In this document: in pieces, positions 10,431 to 16,828 of the stretch
How positions within the stretch are numbered: the stretch's first letter is position 1
How the letters are laid out: the number at the start of each line of letters is the position of its first letter
Source of the DNA: an uncultured Alphaproteobacteria bacterium
GTDB lineage: Bacteria > Pseudomonadota > Alphaproteobacteria > Rhodobacterales > Rhodobacteraceae
Direction of reading: 5' to 3'
Assembly: GCA_902537415.1 (NCBI GenBank)
Contig: CACBBC010000016.1
Span: 1 to 36,342, forward strand
DNA length: 36,342 bases
The notes under the pieces: generated by a model
The model's database searches: none
Told to the model about the DNA's origin: nothing
Seen by the model: only the letters and a program-made list of their open reading frames with translations
Position numbers and translations under genes: made by a program

Positions 10431-11524
10431 AGATTCTTAATTATCCTATTCATTGCATCATCTAAGACCGTTAAATCGTTATTTGTGCCTGCGGTTATTC
10501 TTATAAACGAATTTAGAGGCTTGACACTTGGCATGCGGACAAAAATCTTTTCTTGAATTAAACTGTTCATTAACTTTGCCGCAAAGTTACCATCACCACC
10601 ACTATTTATCGGCACAAAGTTTGTTCTTGAAACTAATGAGTTAAACCCAAATTTCATGAAGATGGAGGAAATATCTTTTTTTGATTTGTCAACTTTTTTC
10701 AAAACAACCTGTAAATACTCCTGATCCTCCAATGCTATTTTGGCAGCGATTTGACCAAGTCTGTTTACTCCGAAGTGATTTCTTACTTTATTAAACGCCT
10801 CAACCAATTTCTTATTTCCAATTCCGTAGCCTATCCTTAACCCGGCCAAGCCATAGGCCTTAGAAAAAGTTCTAAATCTAATAACGTTTTCCCGTTCTAT
10901 GTCAATCGGAGCTAATTCATTCACATCTACAAAGTCTGAGTATGCTTCGTCGAGACAAAGTATTGTTTTGTCAGGTATATTATCTATTAAATCTTGTATT
11001 CTTTCTTTACAGTGAAAAGTTCCCATTGGATTATCTGGGTTAGATAAATACAAAATTTTCGCTTTGCTTTTCTTTGTAGCACTTAGCAACGCGTCAAGAT
11101 CCTCATAATTATTATTGTAAGGAACAAGAGACATATTGCCTCCAAAGCCATCCACATGATATTTAAAAGTTGGGTAAGCGCCAAGGGAAGAAACAACCTT
11201 ATCGCCTGGTTCAATAAAAAGCCTCACTAGGTTTCCCAAAAGACCATCAATACCTTCCCCCACCGTAAAGCTGTCTCTAGGCATCTTATAGAACTCTGAT
11301 AATGTCTGTAAAAGGTCAAAACTCTCAGGATCTCCATATTTCCAGACATTTTCAGCTTGAGCCGTTATCGCATTAATAACTCTTTCAGAGGGACCGAACA
11401 CACTCTCGTTAGCGCCCATCCTAGCATCGAAACTGAATTTATTTTCTCTCTCTTGACTTTCTGGCCCTACGAAAGGTACCGATACAGGTAAGTCATTAGC
11501 TATCTTAGTAAACTTAGGCTTCAA
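10427..11524 (-). CDS. hisC: Histidinol-phosphate aminotransferase-like (class I/II)
   Basis: A 365-residue fold-type I aminotransferase. Motifs are GANESVFGPS (substrate loop), SNPDNPMGT, LDEAYSDF and FRTFSKAYGLAGLRIGYG with the PLP lysine Lys222. The best family match is HisC (histidinol-phosphate to imidazole-acetol phosphate), but several aromatic aminotransferases share these motifs, and it is not in a his operon. The likely start is TTG 11524, whose bases overlap the valS stop (TTGA). A GGAG lies 11 bases upstream inside valS, so reinitiation is plausible. There is no upstream ATG option, and the first internal ATG would remove part of the family N-terminus. Confidence 0.78.
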   Translation of the reverse strand: MKPKFTKIANDLPVSVPFVGPESQERENKFSFDARMGANESVFGPSERVINAITAQAENVWKYGDPESFDLLQTLSEFYKMPRDSFTVGEGIDGLLGNLVRLFIEPGDKVVSSLGAYPTFKYHVDGFGGNMSLVPYNNNYEDLDALLSATKKSKAKILYLSNPDNPMGTFHCKERIQDLIDNIPDKTILCLDEAYSDFVDVNELAPIDIERENVIRFRTFSKAYGLAGLRIGYGIGNKKLVEAFNKVRNHFGVNRLGQIAAKIALEDQEYLQVVLKKVDKSKKDISSIFMKFGFNSLVSRTNFVPINSGGDGNFAAKLMNSLIQEKIFVRMPSVKPLNSFIRITAGTNNDLTVLDDAMNRIIKNL

Positions 11525-14259
11525 TTGTTAATTTTCTCCAATCCTTTTAACAAGGATTTCTGTTTGTTTAATTTTGACTTAAGATCTTCATGATCAGACT
11601 CAAATTTTTCTATAACGGTTTTTGGAGCTTTATCTCTAAAGTTTTTATTTTTTAGTTTTTCTGACAATTTTATATAATCACTCTCTAACTTTTTTAACGT
11701 TGCATTTACTCTCTCTTTTTCAAGTTCTAAATTAAAATCTGATTGAACAGACACAAAGGCCTCTATCTTACCTCCTGAAATTGCCAAAGCGTTTTCGGGT
11801 TTTCTTTGAACTTGCTTGATTTCTAATAGCCTGGCTAACTTGCAAATAATTTTTTCATTCTCCTTAATATAACTATACTGCTTGGCCTCCAGATCAACCA
11901 CGAATAAATCTGTTTTTCCACCTGAAAGTAAATTAAAATCTGACTTGGTAGATCTTATATCCTCAATAAAAGATATAACATTTTCTATTTTATTAACCTG
12001 ATTTTTGTCTATCGAGTTAACACTTATTGTAGGCCAATTACTGTTAGATAAGAGTCCTTTATCCTTTCTAAAATGCTCCCAAAGCTCCTCAGTGACAAAG
12101 GGCATTATAGGATGAAGCATCTTCAAGCACGCTACAAAAACCCAGGACAATGTTTTTCGTGTTTCTTGAACGGTATTTTCATCTTCATTGTTTAAAAGAG
12201 ATTTGGAGAACTCAATATACCAATCACAGAAAACACCCCACGTGTGATTGTAAAGGTTATTAGCGATATCGTTAAACCGAAATCTTTCATAGCTTTGATT
12301 AACTGAGCTCAAAATATCTTGAGTTTTACCTATTATCCATTTATTTGGTGGTGCCTCGACACTTGAAATATCAAACTCATCATCAAAATGACAACCATTC
12401 ATTTCCAAGTATTTTGCTGCATTCCAAATCTTGGTAACGAAATTTCTATATCCCTCAATTCTTGATTCCGATAATTTTAAATCTCGTCCGGTAACTGCCA
12501 TAGCTGTTAAGGTAAACCTGAGGGGATCAGCTCCATATTTATCAATTAGGTCTAGCGGATCAAGCACATTACCCAGAGATTTGGACATTTTTTTTCCATG
12601 CTCGTCTCTTACCAAAGCATGAACATAGACTTTTTTGAAGGGAATTTGTCTTACGGTTGCAAGTTGCATCATTATCATTCTTGCAACCCAGAAAAAAATA
12701 ATATCGAAACCCGTTACCAAAACACTTGTGGGATAGTATCTTTCCATAAAGCCTTTTTCATCAGGCCATCCAAGCGTTCCGATAGGCCAGATGCCTGAAG
12801 AAAACCAAGTATCAAGCACATCTTGATCTTGAGATATATTGCTATGTCCTGCCAATTTTTTGGCTTCTTCAAAACTTTCTGCACAGTATTCATTTCCTTC
12901 ATCATCATACCAGACTGGTATCTGGTGCCCCCACCACAATTGCCTGGAAATACACCAGGGCTCAATATTTTCTAGCCAGTTGAAATAAACTTTTTTGTCT
13001 CGTTCTGGGATAATTTCTATTTTATTCTTCCTAACAACATCAATAGCTTCTTTAACAATTTTTTTCGAGTCAACAAACCACTGGGTAGTTAAAAAAGGCT
13101 CAACTACTACTTTTGATCTATCACCATGTGGGACAAAGTGCACGTCTTCCTTCTCAGCTTCAAAAGAACCTTTTTCTTTCAGTAATCGTAAGATTTTCTT
13201 TCTTGCCTCAAATCTTTCAAGTCCATTTAATTGGTAAATATCTACAGACGGCTTAATTTCATTTGCAAAATCTTCATTATCTTTAATTTTAATATTTGCA
13301 CTGGTATCAAAAATATTGATCGCTTTTAAATTATGCCTTTCTCCAACCTCCCAATCATTAAAGTCATGGGCAGGAGTGATCTTCACAGCACCCGTGCCTT
13401 TGGTAGGATCCGCATAATCATCTGCTATCACTGGGATCTTTCTTCCAACCAATGGTAATATTACTGATTTCCCAATCAAATCCCTGTATCGCTCATCACC
13501 AGGGTTAACAATCACAGCAGTATCTCCAAGAAGTGTCTCTGGTCTAGTTGTTGCAACAACTACATGATCCATAGGCATCCTTTTTAAAACCACTCCATTC
13601 TCATCGGTTTCTACTCCAAAATTGAATGTACCTTCTTCCAGAAAATACTTTAATTCCCAGATTTTCCCTCGAACCTCTATTTGCTCAACTTCTAGATCCG
13701 AAATGGCGCTTTGAAATTTTGGGTCCCAATTTACTAATTTTTTACCCTTATAAATCAATCCTCTGTTGTAAAAATCTACAAAAACTTTTATGACAGCTTT
13801 ATGGAACTCAGGATCCATGGTAAATCTATTCCTGCTCCAATCGCAGGATGCTCCTAACCTCTTCAACTGGTCAATTATAGTATTTCCAGACTTTTCTTTC
13901 CAATTCCAAACCTCTTCAAGAAATTTTTCACGACCCATTTGCTGTCGGCTTTTATTCTTTTTCTCTAACTCTCTTTCAACTACCATTTGAGTTGCAATTC
14001 CAGCATGGTCCTGACCAGGTTGCCATAAAACATCATAGCCGTTCATTCTATGATATCTCACCAAAACATCCTGTATTGTATTGTTAAAGGCATGGCCAAT
14101 GTGCAAGCTGCCCGTAACATTTGGTGGAGGGATCATTATAGAAAATGGTGGTTTGCCTTTTTCGCCATCTTTGCCTGACCTAAAAGCTTCTGCCTCTACC
14201 CAGCGATCATTTATTTTTTTTTCAGCCTCTTCAGGGTTGAATTTATTTGGAAGGTTCAT
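11521..14259 (-). CDS. valS: Valyl-tRNA synthetase
   Basis: A full-length 912-residue class I synthetase that charges tRNA-Val. HIGH is at 53–56 in PPNVTGSLHIGH, the editing domain contains VVATTRPETLLGDTAV, the conserved WCISRQLWWGH precedes the second half of the catalytic domain, and KMSKS is at about 557–561. The C-terminus is the usual coiled coil (about 830–905). ATG 14259. The 150 bases upstream contain a TATAAT on the minus strand (about 14387–14382) that could be a promoter -10, so valS may be transcribed separately from the upstream popZ-like gene as well as with it. Confidence 0.97.
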   Translation of the reverse strand: MNLPNKFNPEEAEKKINDRWVEAEAFRSGKDGEKGKPPFSIMIPPPNVTGSLHIGHAFNNTIQDVLVRYHRMNGYDVLWQPGQDHAGIATQMVVERELEKKNKSRQQMGREKFLEEVWNWKEKSGNTIIDQLKRLGASCDWSRNRFTMDPEFHKAVIKVFVDFYNRGLIYKGKKLVNWDPKFQSAISDLEVEQIEVRGKIWELKYFLEEGTFNFGVETDENGVVLKRMPMDHVVVATTRPETLLGDTAVIVNPGDERYRDLIGKSVILPLVGRKIPVIADDYADPTKGTGAVKITPAHDFNDWEVGERHNLKAINIFDTSANIKIKDNEDFANEIKPSVDIYQLNGLERFEARKKILRLLKEKGSFEAEKEDVHFVPHGDRSKVVVEPFLTTQWFVDSKKIVKEAIDVVRKNKIEIIPERDKKVYFNWLENIEPWCISRQLWWGHQIPVWYDDEGNEYCAESFEEAKKLAGHSNISQDQDVLDTWFSSGIWPIGTLGWPDEKGFMERYYPTSVLVTGFDIIFFWVARMIMMQLATVRQIPFKKVYVHALVRDEHGKKMSKSLGNVLDPLDLIDKYGADPLRFTLTAMAVTGRDLKLSESRIEGYRNFVTKIWNAAKYLEMNGCHFDDEFDISSVEAPPNKWIIGKTQDILSSVNQSYERFRFNDIANNLYNHTWGVFCDWYIEFSKSLLNNEDENTVQETRKTLSWVFVACLKMLHPIMPFVTEELWEHFRKDKGLLSNSNWPTISVNSIDKNQVNKIENVISFIEDIRSTKSDFNLLSGGKTDLFVVDLEAKQYSYIKENEKIICKLARLLEIKQVQRKPENALAISGGKIEAFVSVQSDFNLELEKERVNATLKKLESDYIKLSEKLKNKNFRDKAPKTVIEKFESDHEDLKSKLNKQKSLLKGLEKINN

Positions 14260-14409: not shown

Positions 14410-14874
14410 CTATGGAGCATTGACTTTATTTTTTTTAAGCTCATTAATTATTTCTGCCTTAGTATGTTTACTGCTTAAATTTAATTTGTTTTTCTTTGAT
14501 AATGAAAGAAGATCGGCCTTTGTTAACAAGCTTAAGCCAGAATTGCTCTTTATTCCTACGTTTGTTTTTCTTTTTTCTGACTTTAAACTATCCGGTTTAT
14601 TATTTGACTGAAAATTCTTAAGTTCACTTCTTACAATTTTTCTTATTAAACTCTCCAGTTTCTTATCATTTAGATCAAAAGATTGAGGGGAGTATCTTTT
14701 TTCACCTTCGGTTACCAAGTTTTCCTTTTTTAGTTTTATAGTCTTATATTCACTCACCTTGAATAGTGTTTCCTTCTCCCCTGAAACAACAGTTTTAATG
14801 TCACCAAGAATTTCTTTAAGATCGACTTTGCCATTTTCTTTTTTCTCTTTTTTTGCAGTGTTTTTTTCAGCCAT
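14410..14874 (-). CDS. PopZ-like (DUF2497-type) protein with SAP/Rho_N-like C-terminus
   Basis: A 154-residue, lysine-rich protein. Residues 18–32 (DLKEILGDIKTVVSGE) match the pattern of the PopZ N-terminal helix (EEILASIRRIISED in typical members). Residues 71–89 (KKLESLIRKIVRSELKNFQ) resemble the first helix of the PopZ C-terminal assembly region. The position between tolC and valS is where popZ/DUF2497 sits in many alphaproteobacteria. The rest of the C-terminal assembly helices is missing. Instead, 116–149 (LLTKADLLSLSKKNKLNLSS and onward) looks like a small SAP/Rho_N/HeH-type helix-extended-loop-helix nucleic-acid-binding domain. PopZ organises the cell pole and anchors ParB/parS. Whether this protein can form a polar network is unknown. 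Confidence 0.55.
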   Translation of the reverse strand: MAEKNTAKKEKKENGKVDLKEILGDIKTVVSGEKETLFKVSEYKTIKLKKENLVTEGEKRYSPQSFDLNDKKLESLIRKIVRSELKNFQSNNKPDSLKSEKRKTNVGIKSNSGLSLLTKADLLSLSKKNKLNLSSKHTKAEIINELKKNKVNAP

Positions 14875-14898: not shown

Positions 14899-16161
14899 CT
14901 ATTGTCGCAGCTGTAGCCTAGTTCTCAGAGTACCTATCTCGGCTAACAAGTCAAATTTTGCAATTAATATATCTGTAGTGCTAGCAACTAATTCAACTTC
15001 AGAATTCAGGAAATTTTGATATGCTTGATCAGTATCTAGCGATGTCTTTCCTCCAAGCCTCCATTCTTCAAATACGCTCTCATAAAGCTCTTTCAAAGCG
15101 TTGGTTTCTTCTTGCTTAGCAATGACTGCGGACTTTAAAGCCATTAAATCCAACCACTTTGTTGTAATATCTCTTTGCAACGTTTTTTTTCTTACCGCAA
15201 TATCAATCGCTTTTGCTGCCAGTTTATTCGAGCCAATTTTAACCCTAGCTTTTTTCTGGCCACCACTATAAAGAACAAGGCTAGAGGTTAAAGAGATCCG
15301 TCCGGAACCAATATTATTTCCTAAGGTCTGACTATCACCATAAGACAAACTTCCAGAAAGGCTTAGATTTGGTAACTGAGATTTTTCTATGGAACTTAAT
15401 TCGGCTCTTAGCGCTTGCTCTTCAAGCGTAAGAACTTTCAAAGCAATGTCATTCTCTATTCCATTTTTAACGCTGATCTCTAATGTCGAAGGTTCTTTTA
15501 TTTTCATTTCTGGAAGCGAAGGTTTATCAGAAATTTTACCCACCAAAGTCTTATAACTTTCTCTAAGCTTCTTAACGTTTGCTTGTCCCACTTTTAGTTG
15601 TGCCTCAGCGCCGGAAATTGAAGCTTTGGATCTCAGGAGGTCTGACCTTGTGGCCTCTCCTAAATCAAATCTATTCTTTACTGCCAAGAATTGCTGCTTC
15701 CTTATCCCAAGGCTACTTTCATAAAGATCCACAATTTTTATCGCCTTAAAAAGTTCTAAGTGTACTTTGACTACGCTCAGTATCAGCTCATCTTCAAGCT
15801 TTTTAAACGAAAGTTTTGAGGCCTCATTCAAATGAATAGATGATGTCTTTTTTGCTTTGAGTGATCCAAAGTCAAACAAAGTATATGAAGAATTCAACGA
15901 AATGCTGTAGCTATCTGTATCCTGGTTTGTATCAAAATTAGATGATCGAGCCCCAGTGCCACTTAAAGAAAGACTTGGTAACATTATTCCTTTTTGAATT
16001 AAGAAATTCTGATAGCTATTATCAAGCAATACTTTCTGGCTCTTCAAGCTCTCATTATATTCCAATGCCCTTTTTACAGACTCTTTTATGCTCTGTGTGA
16101 ATGCCTCTTTGCAGAAACAAAAGATTACCAGAGTTAATATTATAAAAGTTTTAATATTCAT
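14899..16161 (-). CDS. tolC: TolC-family outer-membrane efflux protein
   Basis: 420 residues with a clear signal peptide (about 1–22, cleavage near AFTQ). The internal repeat is typical of the outer-membrane efflux protein family: long helices with ALEYNESL early and KVLTLEEQALRAELSSIEKSQLPNLSLSGSLSYG (read in pieces) in the second half. Trimeric channel in the outer membrane for type I secretion and RND/ABC efflux. The pcm–tolC order is conserved in alphaproteobacteria. The pcm stop is 16 bases upstream, so they are co-transcribed. The partner pump is not in this cluster; the MsbA-type exporter is 6 kb away and need not be related. Confidence 0.9.
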   Translation of the reverse strand: MNIKTFIILTLVIFCFCKEAFTQSIKESVKRALEYNESLKSQKVLLDNSYQNFLIQKGIMLPSLSLSGTGARSSNFDTNQDTDSYSISLNSSYTLFDFGSLKAKKTSSIHLNEASKLSFKKLEDELILSVVKVHLELFKAIKIVDLYESSLGIRKQQFLAVKNRFDLGEATRSDLLRSKASISGAEAQLKVGQANVKKLRESYKTLVGKISDKPSLPEMKIKEPSTLEISVKNGIENDIALKVLTLEEQALRAELSSIEKSQLPNLSLSGSLSYGDSQTLGNNIGSGRISLTSSLVLYSGGQKKARVKIGSNKLAAKAIDIAVRKKTLQRDITTKWLDLMALKSAVIAKQEETNALKELYESVFEEWRLGGKTSLDTDQAYQNFLNSEVELVASTTDILIAKFDLLAEIGTLRTRLQLRQ

Positions 16162-16177
16162 TAAATTTTCTACCTAT

Positions 16178-16828
16178 TCAAAAGGTAAATTCCTTTTCCA
16201 TTTTAAAATCATTCAACAAAACACAATTTGCTTCAAAAAGGTTTCTCCACTGCACTCCAGATTTTGTTTTTATACCTAGCCTGCATTGACCTAAAATTTT
16301 TTCTTTAAATACTGCTATGATCCTACCCTCGAGTTTAAGCTGATTTATGATTTCCTCATTTATATATTCAACAGCACCCTCAATTAAAATTGCATCATAG
16401 GGTCCCTCTTCCTCCGCGCCTTCGTTAATATTGCCCTCTAGAACTAAAATATTATCGTACCCATTTTCAATTAATCTAGCTTGAGCTTCTTTTGCAAGGT
16501 CTGGTATTTCAACAGCAACAACAAAATTTGCCAACGATGACATTAGGGCACAACTATAGCCGTATCCCGCGGCAAGACTTAGAACATTATCTGCTGAGTT
16601 GAGGTCTAAAAATTGGAGCATTTTAGCAAGAAGCCAAGGACTCATTGATGTTCTATCATTTTGTATTAGCAACTCAGTTTCACTGTAAGACAAGCTGGCT
16701 AGGTTGCTAGGTAAAAACTTATCTCGTTGAACATCTCCTAAAGCTGACAAAAGCTTTGGATCAGTCACATTAGCAGGCCGAATTAAGTTATCCACCATAT
16801 TCTTTCGTGCTTTTTTGTAGTCAAACAT
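16178..16828 (-). CDS. pcm: Protein-L-isoaspartate O-methyltransferase-like
   Basis: A 216-residue protein of the PCMT family. The N-terminus MFDYKKARKNMVDNLIRPANVTD and RDKFLPSNLASLSYSETELLI follow the family well. The SAM-binding motif I is altered: LSLAAGYGYSCAL in place of LEIGTGSGYQTAV, so the acidic residue and first glycine are changed while G-x-G-Y remains. Motif II-like DAILIEGAV is present. The family repairs isoaspartyl residues in aged proteins. In alphaproteobacteria the copy next to tolC is often annotated pcm, but its activity is rarely tested. With the altered motif I am less sure that it is catalytic. First gene of the pcm–tolC–popZ-like–valS–hisC series. Confidence 0.75.
   Translation of the reverse strand: MFDYKKARKNMVDNLIRPANVTDPKLLSALGDVQRDKFLPSNLASLSYSETELLIQNDRTSMSPWLLAKMLQFLDLNSADNVLSLAAGYGYSCALMSSLANFVVAVEIPDLAKEAQARLIENGYDNILVLEGNINEGAEEEGPYDAILIEGAVEYINEEIINQLKLEGRIIAVFKEKILGQCRLGIKTKSGVQWRNLFEANCVLLNDFKMEKEFTF

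Follow-up and report, generated by a model that had tools for sequence, protein, structure and literature searches.

In Caulobacter crescentus, PopZ binds its clients through an N-terminal helix, is made fluid by an acidic linker, and is driven to condense by C-terminal helices (PMC9512792). Three C-terminal helices are predicted, and, according to that study, removing any of three C-terminal fragments markedly lowers visible condensates. The same study describes the architecture as conserved across all alphaproteobacteria, the oligomerisation domain highly so, and an acidic, proline-rich linker as a feature of PopZ in Caulobacterales (PMC9512792). PopZ contacts the nucleoid via ParB, as stated in another report (PMC9926476). 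According to two further papers, a conspicuous PopZ ortholog is lacking in many Rhodobacterales (PMC5182065), and R. sphaeroides has no PopZ (PMC6414705). Among the matches listed in our literature search, which lay mostly outside the subscription literature, no title reporting a Rhodobacterales PopZ was found; nor did that search, of the same scope, find PopZ and the SAP domain treated together.

The stretch of DNA analysed here (the window) is 36,342 nucleotides long and belongs to a genome assembly of 1.61 Mb that is 65% complete. Its genus presumably comprises small-genome marine bacteria of the Rhodobacteraceae (the family referred to below); the related records are mostly single-cell or metagenome assemblies, whose isolate codes point to a marine origin. 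An intact ORF on the minus strand (14410..14874), with an ATG start, encodes a protein of 154 amino acids. Its upstream neighbour codes for a tolC-type outer membrane efflux protein (14899..16161, minus strand; PF02321, E = 2.9e-39), preceded by pcm, the gene for protein-L-isoaspartate O-methyltransferase (16178..16828, minus strand; PF01135, E = 6.3e-30), and its downstream neighbour is valS (11521..14259, minus strand; PF00133, E = 6.3e-149). The order pcm, tolC, ORF and valS thus runs along one strand throughout. A scan for promoters and terminators returned signals no commoner than in shuffles. We report herein that, judging from profile comparisons, genus homologs and gene order, the 154-amino-acid gene is most likely the orthologue of popZ in its genus, and that its product is a PopZ-type protein with a predicted HeH tail.

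Homologs were found in 18 of the 22 genomes of the genus by profile search, and the single protein as query retrieved the same 18. At every one of these loci (L001-L018) the gene is flanked by pcm and tolC, and at 17 of them by valS; the contig of the single locus without valS ends inside the gene. A first-pass annotation had assigned a PopZ-like protein to the popZ locus, with tolC on one side and valS on the other, and this placement holds across the genus. In the four genomes without the gene, tolC was likewise not found, while a control genome did yield tolC, so the locus is missing from these incomplete assemblies. An alignment of 17 genus proteins (A1, from which the truncated relative L017 was excluded) shows three conserved blocks, at about residues 19-53, 73-86 and 117-149. 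The ORF is under purifying selection. Among the 11 closest of the 17 aligned genomes, dN/dS is about 0.30 for the whole ORF, and 0.12, 0.44 and 0.27 for residues 18-56, 70-91 and 113-150, respectively, all values being sums over genome pairs that are not independent; the value of 1.5 at residues 57-69 rests on 13 codons only and is untrustworthy. In the 22 genus genomes, most of them incomplete, a search for a second PopZ-like gene gave one weak match elsewhere with PF10691 (E = 0.39) and none at E 1 with the family PopZ profile.

No stock Pfam or NCBIfam model matched PopZ in the window protein, in nine genus relatives or in the protein at L057, a tolC-valS locus of another small-genome genus. 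PF10691 found no match in the window genome and, when run on 61 genomes, did not detect this gene in the window's genus; the window protein accordingly does not reach the cut-off of a curated PopZ model (PF10691 or NF052660). A PopZ profile match over residues 15-90, on which the first-pass annotation was to stand or fall, was absent with the library models and was obtained with lineage profiles only. A genus-only profile of residues 1-95 (17 rows) was searched against a set of 4,972 ORFs, each 40 amino acids or longer, from the window and loci L001-L099. By PF10691 matches, locus and eye, 33 of the 4,972 were labelled PopZ-type, one gene (L040/L060) being counted twice; 37 copies of the gene itself were set aside before ranking, and most genomes are present twice. 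The choice of loci deliberately favoured PopZ, yet PopZ-type ORFs make up only 33 of the 4,972. Outside the gene itself, the first 18 matches of the genus-only profile were all PopZ-type, as were 27 of the first 32; with a whole-protein genus profile, the corresponding numbers among the 4,972 ORFs were the first 16 matches and 25 of the first 32. E-values that stood out with the 1-95 profile were confined to L057 (3.7e-7), L027, a PopZ of another family (0.0038), and L024 (0.019).

Comparison of profile with profile points the same way. Genus residues 13-60 were aligned by hhalign with the PopZ N block of other alphaproteobacteria at a probability of 68.7, with the N block of the same family at 31.6, and with both sets together at 75.2; in each of these three comparisons the score was reached by none of 150 column-shuffled decoys. 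Genus residues 61-96 matched the helices of the family PopZ with probabilities of 93.8 (first helix) and 55.6 (second), and those of other PopZ with 29.1 (first) and 81.4 (second), and the four scores were reached by 0/150, 0/150, 0/100 and 0/150 decoys. Descent from PopZ is therefore detectable with the genus-only profile and with hhalign against decoys. Other tests gave weaker signals. Full-length hhalign of the genus against the family alignment gave a probability of 35.4 and covered the helix only, the N block being absent. With the family N-block profile, no member of the genus came up at E 10. When single genus sequences were scored with N-block profiles, the best E was 0.65, which is below significance, and the family C-block profile gave a best E of 0.0072 among genus members and 0.42 for the window protein. 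Searching 394 family genomes with profile A2, which includes the genome of L057 (G078) as a row, returned two genus genomes, G078 itself by construction, and three weak matches (E = 0.04-0.3).

The core of the N block, residues 18-33 (DLKEILGDIKTVVSGE; 14776..14823, minus strand), is by hhalign and decoys the putative counterpart of the client-binding helix 1 of PopZ. Residues 34-56 (14707..14775, minus strand) are conserved in the genus alignment and are predicted to form a short beta-hairpin, with AlphaFold2 placing strands at 36-41 and 44-48 at low confidence. In the family PopZ, LVLTPALRV is a second conserved motif after the N block; the segment IKLKKENLV within residues 34-56 is possibly equivalent to it and to VLELTE of other PopZ, a match made by eye. 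Residues 70-91 (14602..14667, minus strand) form a single predicted helix that, by hhalign, decoys and model, matches one of the C-terminal pair of PopZ. Family profiles score it 29.4 against the first of the pair and 19.4 against the second, the latter by a thin margin over a decoy maximum of 18.3, whereas profiles of other alphaproteobacteria score it 22.9 against the second and 16.5 against the first. The retained helix can thus be either of the two by sequence. The N-terminal block and the one C-terminal helix that the first-pass annotation took to be PopZ-like are both upheld by the lineage profiles, with 0/150 decoys for each. Its further proposal, that the remaining PopZ helices were replaced, stands in so far as only one helix of the pair was detected; which one is kept divides the profiles.

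The other helix of the conserved pair has no match in the tail. Residues 108-154, compared with six profiles of the PopZ C terminus, scored no better than shuffled decoys, of which 10 to 50 in 60 reached the score of the tail, so the absence of the remaining helix that had been claimed agrees with every PopZ helix profile tried. Inspection by eye of three frames in the 150 bp before valS or after the stop codon of the G078 gene disclosed no relics of a lost helix.

Residues 92-112 (14539..14601, minus strand) make up a basic linker with a net charge of +4 by charge count. They are followed by residues 113-150 (14425..14538, minus strand), for which AlphaFold2, Foldseek and charge point to an HeH (SAP/Rho_N-like) domain. 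The AlphaFold2 model of the whole protein has a pLDDT of only 60.3 and a pTM of 0.30, with block means of 78-88 over residues 111-150; the tail alone (residues 108-154, 47 amino acids) is modelled as a helix-loop-helix with a pLDDT of 85.9 and a pTM of 0.66. AlphaFold, which had been put forward as a check, was thus informative for the tail and much less so for the protein as a whole. The predicted helices span residues 119-128 and 139-148 (positions 12-21 and 32-41 of the tail modelled alone), in line with the helix-extended-loop-helix of SAP, HeH or Rho_N type described in the first-pass annotation. When the tail model was compared with the PDB by Foldseek, 35 matches were returned, all with E of at least 1.8. 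Of these, 23 were FAN1 (9), MANF/CDNF (7), T4 endonuclease VII (2) and Rho (5), proteins that we take to carry SAP or HeH-type domains, with query TM-scores of 0.57-0.72; one match title names a MANF SAP complex, and the remaining 12 were other proteins. Foldseek with the whole-protein model gave two matches with E above 7 and no useful fold, and a profile of the tail, searched against PDB sequences, gave one chance match (E = 0.98). Among 17 genus members, no SAP, HeH or Rho_N Pfam model rose above its cut-off, Rho_N being detected in one of them at E = 0.047. The tail is a predicted HeH (SAP/Rho_N-type) domain, and it appears specific to the genus. In Pfam it comes nearest not to SAP but to DUF2624, a family of unknown function, whose matches in 16 of the 17 members lie below its cut-off (best E = 0.00019; 21 bits for the window protein, cut-off 24.7). 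An origin of the tail by copying from another gene of the genus was also considered, but the 22 genomes showed no second copy with an E below 0.04.

The protein also differs from its PopZ relatives in charge. The window protein has a net charge of +16 and three prolines in 154 amino acids, and the 17 genus members range from +6 to +19 (pI 9.3-10.0), versus -28 to -95 (pI 4.1-4.4) for 11 PopZ-like proteins of the family. Per 100 amino acids, this amounts to +10.4 for the window protein versus -9.8 to -21.3 for the family. Residues 113-154 carry a net charge of +6 and residues 92-154 one of +10, and an acidic, proline-rich disordered linker is absent from the window protein. As controls, the N-terminal stretch of ValS gave -0.3 in the window versus -0.7 to -5.3 in 28 family loci (L082, whose contig ends early, being excluded), and TolC gave +2.6 in the window, with -1.5 and -6.2 for two members of the family. 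The swing in PopZ charge is far too large to come from a shift of a few units throughout the lineage.

Set beside Caulobacter PopZ (DUF2497, PF10691; NF052660), the window protein shares the tolC-valS locus, the N block and one C-terminal helix, but has no acidic proline-rich linker, has one conserved helix that was not found, and has an HeH tail added. The right reference is the family's own divergent PopZ (profile A4, built from the 11 family proteins), rather than Caulobacter PopZ. The family PopZ shares the adjacency to tolC and the N block (IEDVLSSIRRLVSE), and its helix LRELVSEIVRQELQG resembles LESLIRKIVRSELKN of the window protein; unlike the window protein, it has a second helix (ERITRNVRKLVRREI), a long acidic linker and no HeH. 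At L057 of G078 (genus g58), the tolC-valS locus holds a 133-codon frame that has the N block and the matching helix, but stops after that helix without HeH and is slightly acidic (-4.5 per 100 amino acids). Judging by where it ends, the second helix and linker may have been lost in one step and the HeH gained in another, though two genera do not prove the order. The predicted tail, for its part, shares helix, extended loop and helix with SAP, Rho_N and HeH domains, but differs in having neither a significant Foldseek E-value nor a sequence-model match at cut-off.

The sequence supports a history in which the PopZ-type N block and one C-terminal helix were kept, while the acidic linker and the other helix were lost. 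Since the tail is in addition basic and is predicted to have a fold that commonly serves in DNA or RNA binding, an adaptor tethered to the nucleoid or to RNA is favoured over a self-assembled matrix. In such a protein the N block would still dock PopZ clients, the single C-terminal helix would support no more than weak self-association, and DNA or RNA would be bound by the basic HeH tail. The small adaptor would concentrate pole clients on the nucleoid or RNA, and would stand in for the self-assembling acidic matrix, which reaches the chromosome only through ParB. We put at about even the chance that this popZ orthologue is a small pole adaptor of that kind, with client docking kept, self-assembly weak and the basic HeH tail on nucleic acid. 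The data concern descent, locus, charge, selection and predicted fold, and it is client binding, assembly, nucleic-acid binding and localisation that we infer. It is a more tentative proposal, and a doubtful one, that the pole organiser has been rebuilt, trading its acidic scaffold for a basic HeH tail on the chromosome or RNA, so that nucleic acid would place the clients and not a condensate tethered by ParB. A charge inversion together with a nucleic-acid-type fold in place of an assembly helix would amount to a natural experiment on what is essential in a polar hub.

SAP folds can also bind protein. PopZ may accordingly be in reduction here, with client binding kept and the HeH tail acting as a protein-binding or dimerising module and no nucleic-acid binder. 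Among its nearest folds, Foldseek lists MANF and CDNF domains complexed with BiP, a chaperone, which would suit such a tail, and the short PopZ-like protein of G078, which stops after the helix at the same locus without HeH, would suit reduction. On the other hand, residues 92-154 are strongly basic (+10), as suits nucleic acid, and a tail conserved across the genus with a dN/dS of 0.27 argues against mere decay; we consider a protein-binding tail rather unlikely. The tail could also be a strongly diverged PopZ C-terminal helix pair, with nothing replaced and three C-terminal helices as in Caulobacter. The model of the window protein has a comparable number of long helices (70-91, 119-128 and 139-148), three being predicted for Caulobacter PopZ (PMC9512792). 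Yet the tail is no better than shuffled decoys against any PopZ helix profile tried, the block that contains helix 70-91 already matches the conserved pair, and the tail model resembles SAP/HeH domains, albeit at weak E, all of which makes a diverged pair improbable.

There is also the prospect that the likeness to PopZ is a coincidence, an unrelated small basic protein having replaced popZ. No library model matches, and the single-sequence and full-length profile scores are weak, as a coincidence would have it. But the genus profile ranks PopZ proteins first, both blocks match in the correct order with 0/150 decoys, the locus is the same, and L057, in another genus but at the same locus, matches the genus-only profile; coincidence seems to us a long shot. 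The small adaptor descended from PopZ is the account that we prefer.

The family PopZ itself is widespread. At E <=0.001, profile A4 finds a match in 345 of 394 family genomes, about a dozen of these matches being weaker than 1e-10, and in 308 of the 346 more complete genomes; with the 11 source genomes of A4 subtracted, 334 of 383 match. The 394 genomes were sampled evenly from a larger group, and at most five candidates were scored per genome. Of the 30 best A4 loci (L139-L168), nine of which are A4 rows, 29 have tolC immediately upstream on the same strand; in the thirtieth, the contig begins shortly before the gene. Compared with the PopZ of other bacterial families, the family PopZ reached probabilities of 97.4 for the N block and 95.3 for the C block, the latter with a score of 42.5, where the best of 100 decoys scored 17.2. 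The NCBIfam model PopZ_fam matches 10 of the 11 family members (best E = 1.8e-6), the first member scoring 23.8 bits against a cut-off of 125; PF10691 matches 7 of the 11, and all ten family proteins at L042-L051 fall below its cut-off. Most sampled genomes of the family thus appear, from these profile matches, to encode a divergent PopZ-like gene, against the published absence in Rhodobacterales and R. sphaeroides, and this may matter more than the HeH variant.

Several other loci of this kind deserve mention. Full-length forms lie between tolC and valS at L058 (G025) and L119 (G036). In G104 (L118), which is near by ValS, there is no PopZ between tolC and valS; the gap is filled by an oppositely oriented ORF of 762 amino acids (positions 1415-3703 of L118), and A4 found no PopZ in that genome at E 0.001. 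The frame ending at position 1924 of L124 (G103) has an apparent duplication of the first C-terminal helix, LRDVVRELLREELAGG then LRLLIADVLREELQG. Within the same family, a long protein before valS at L040 (G029) passes the PF10691 cut-off with 39.9 bits, and is therefore of the classical type.
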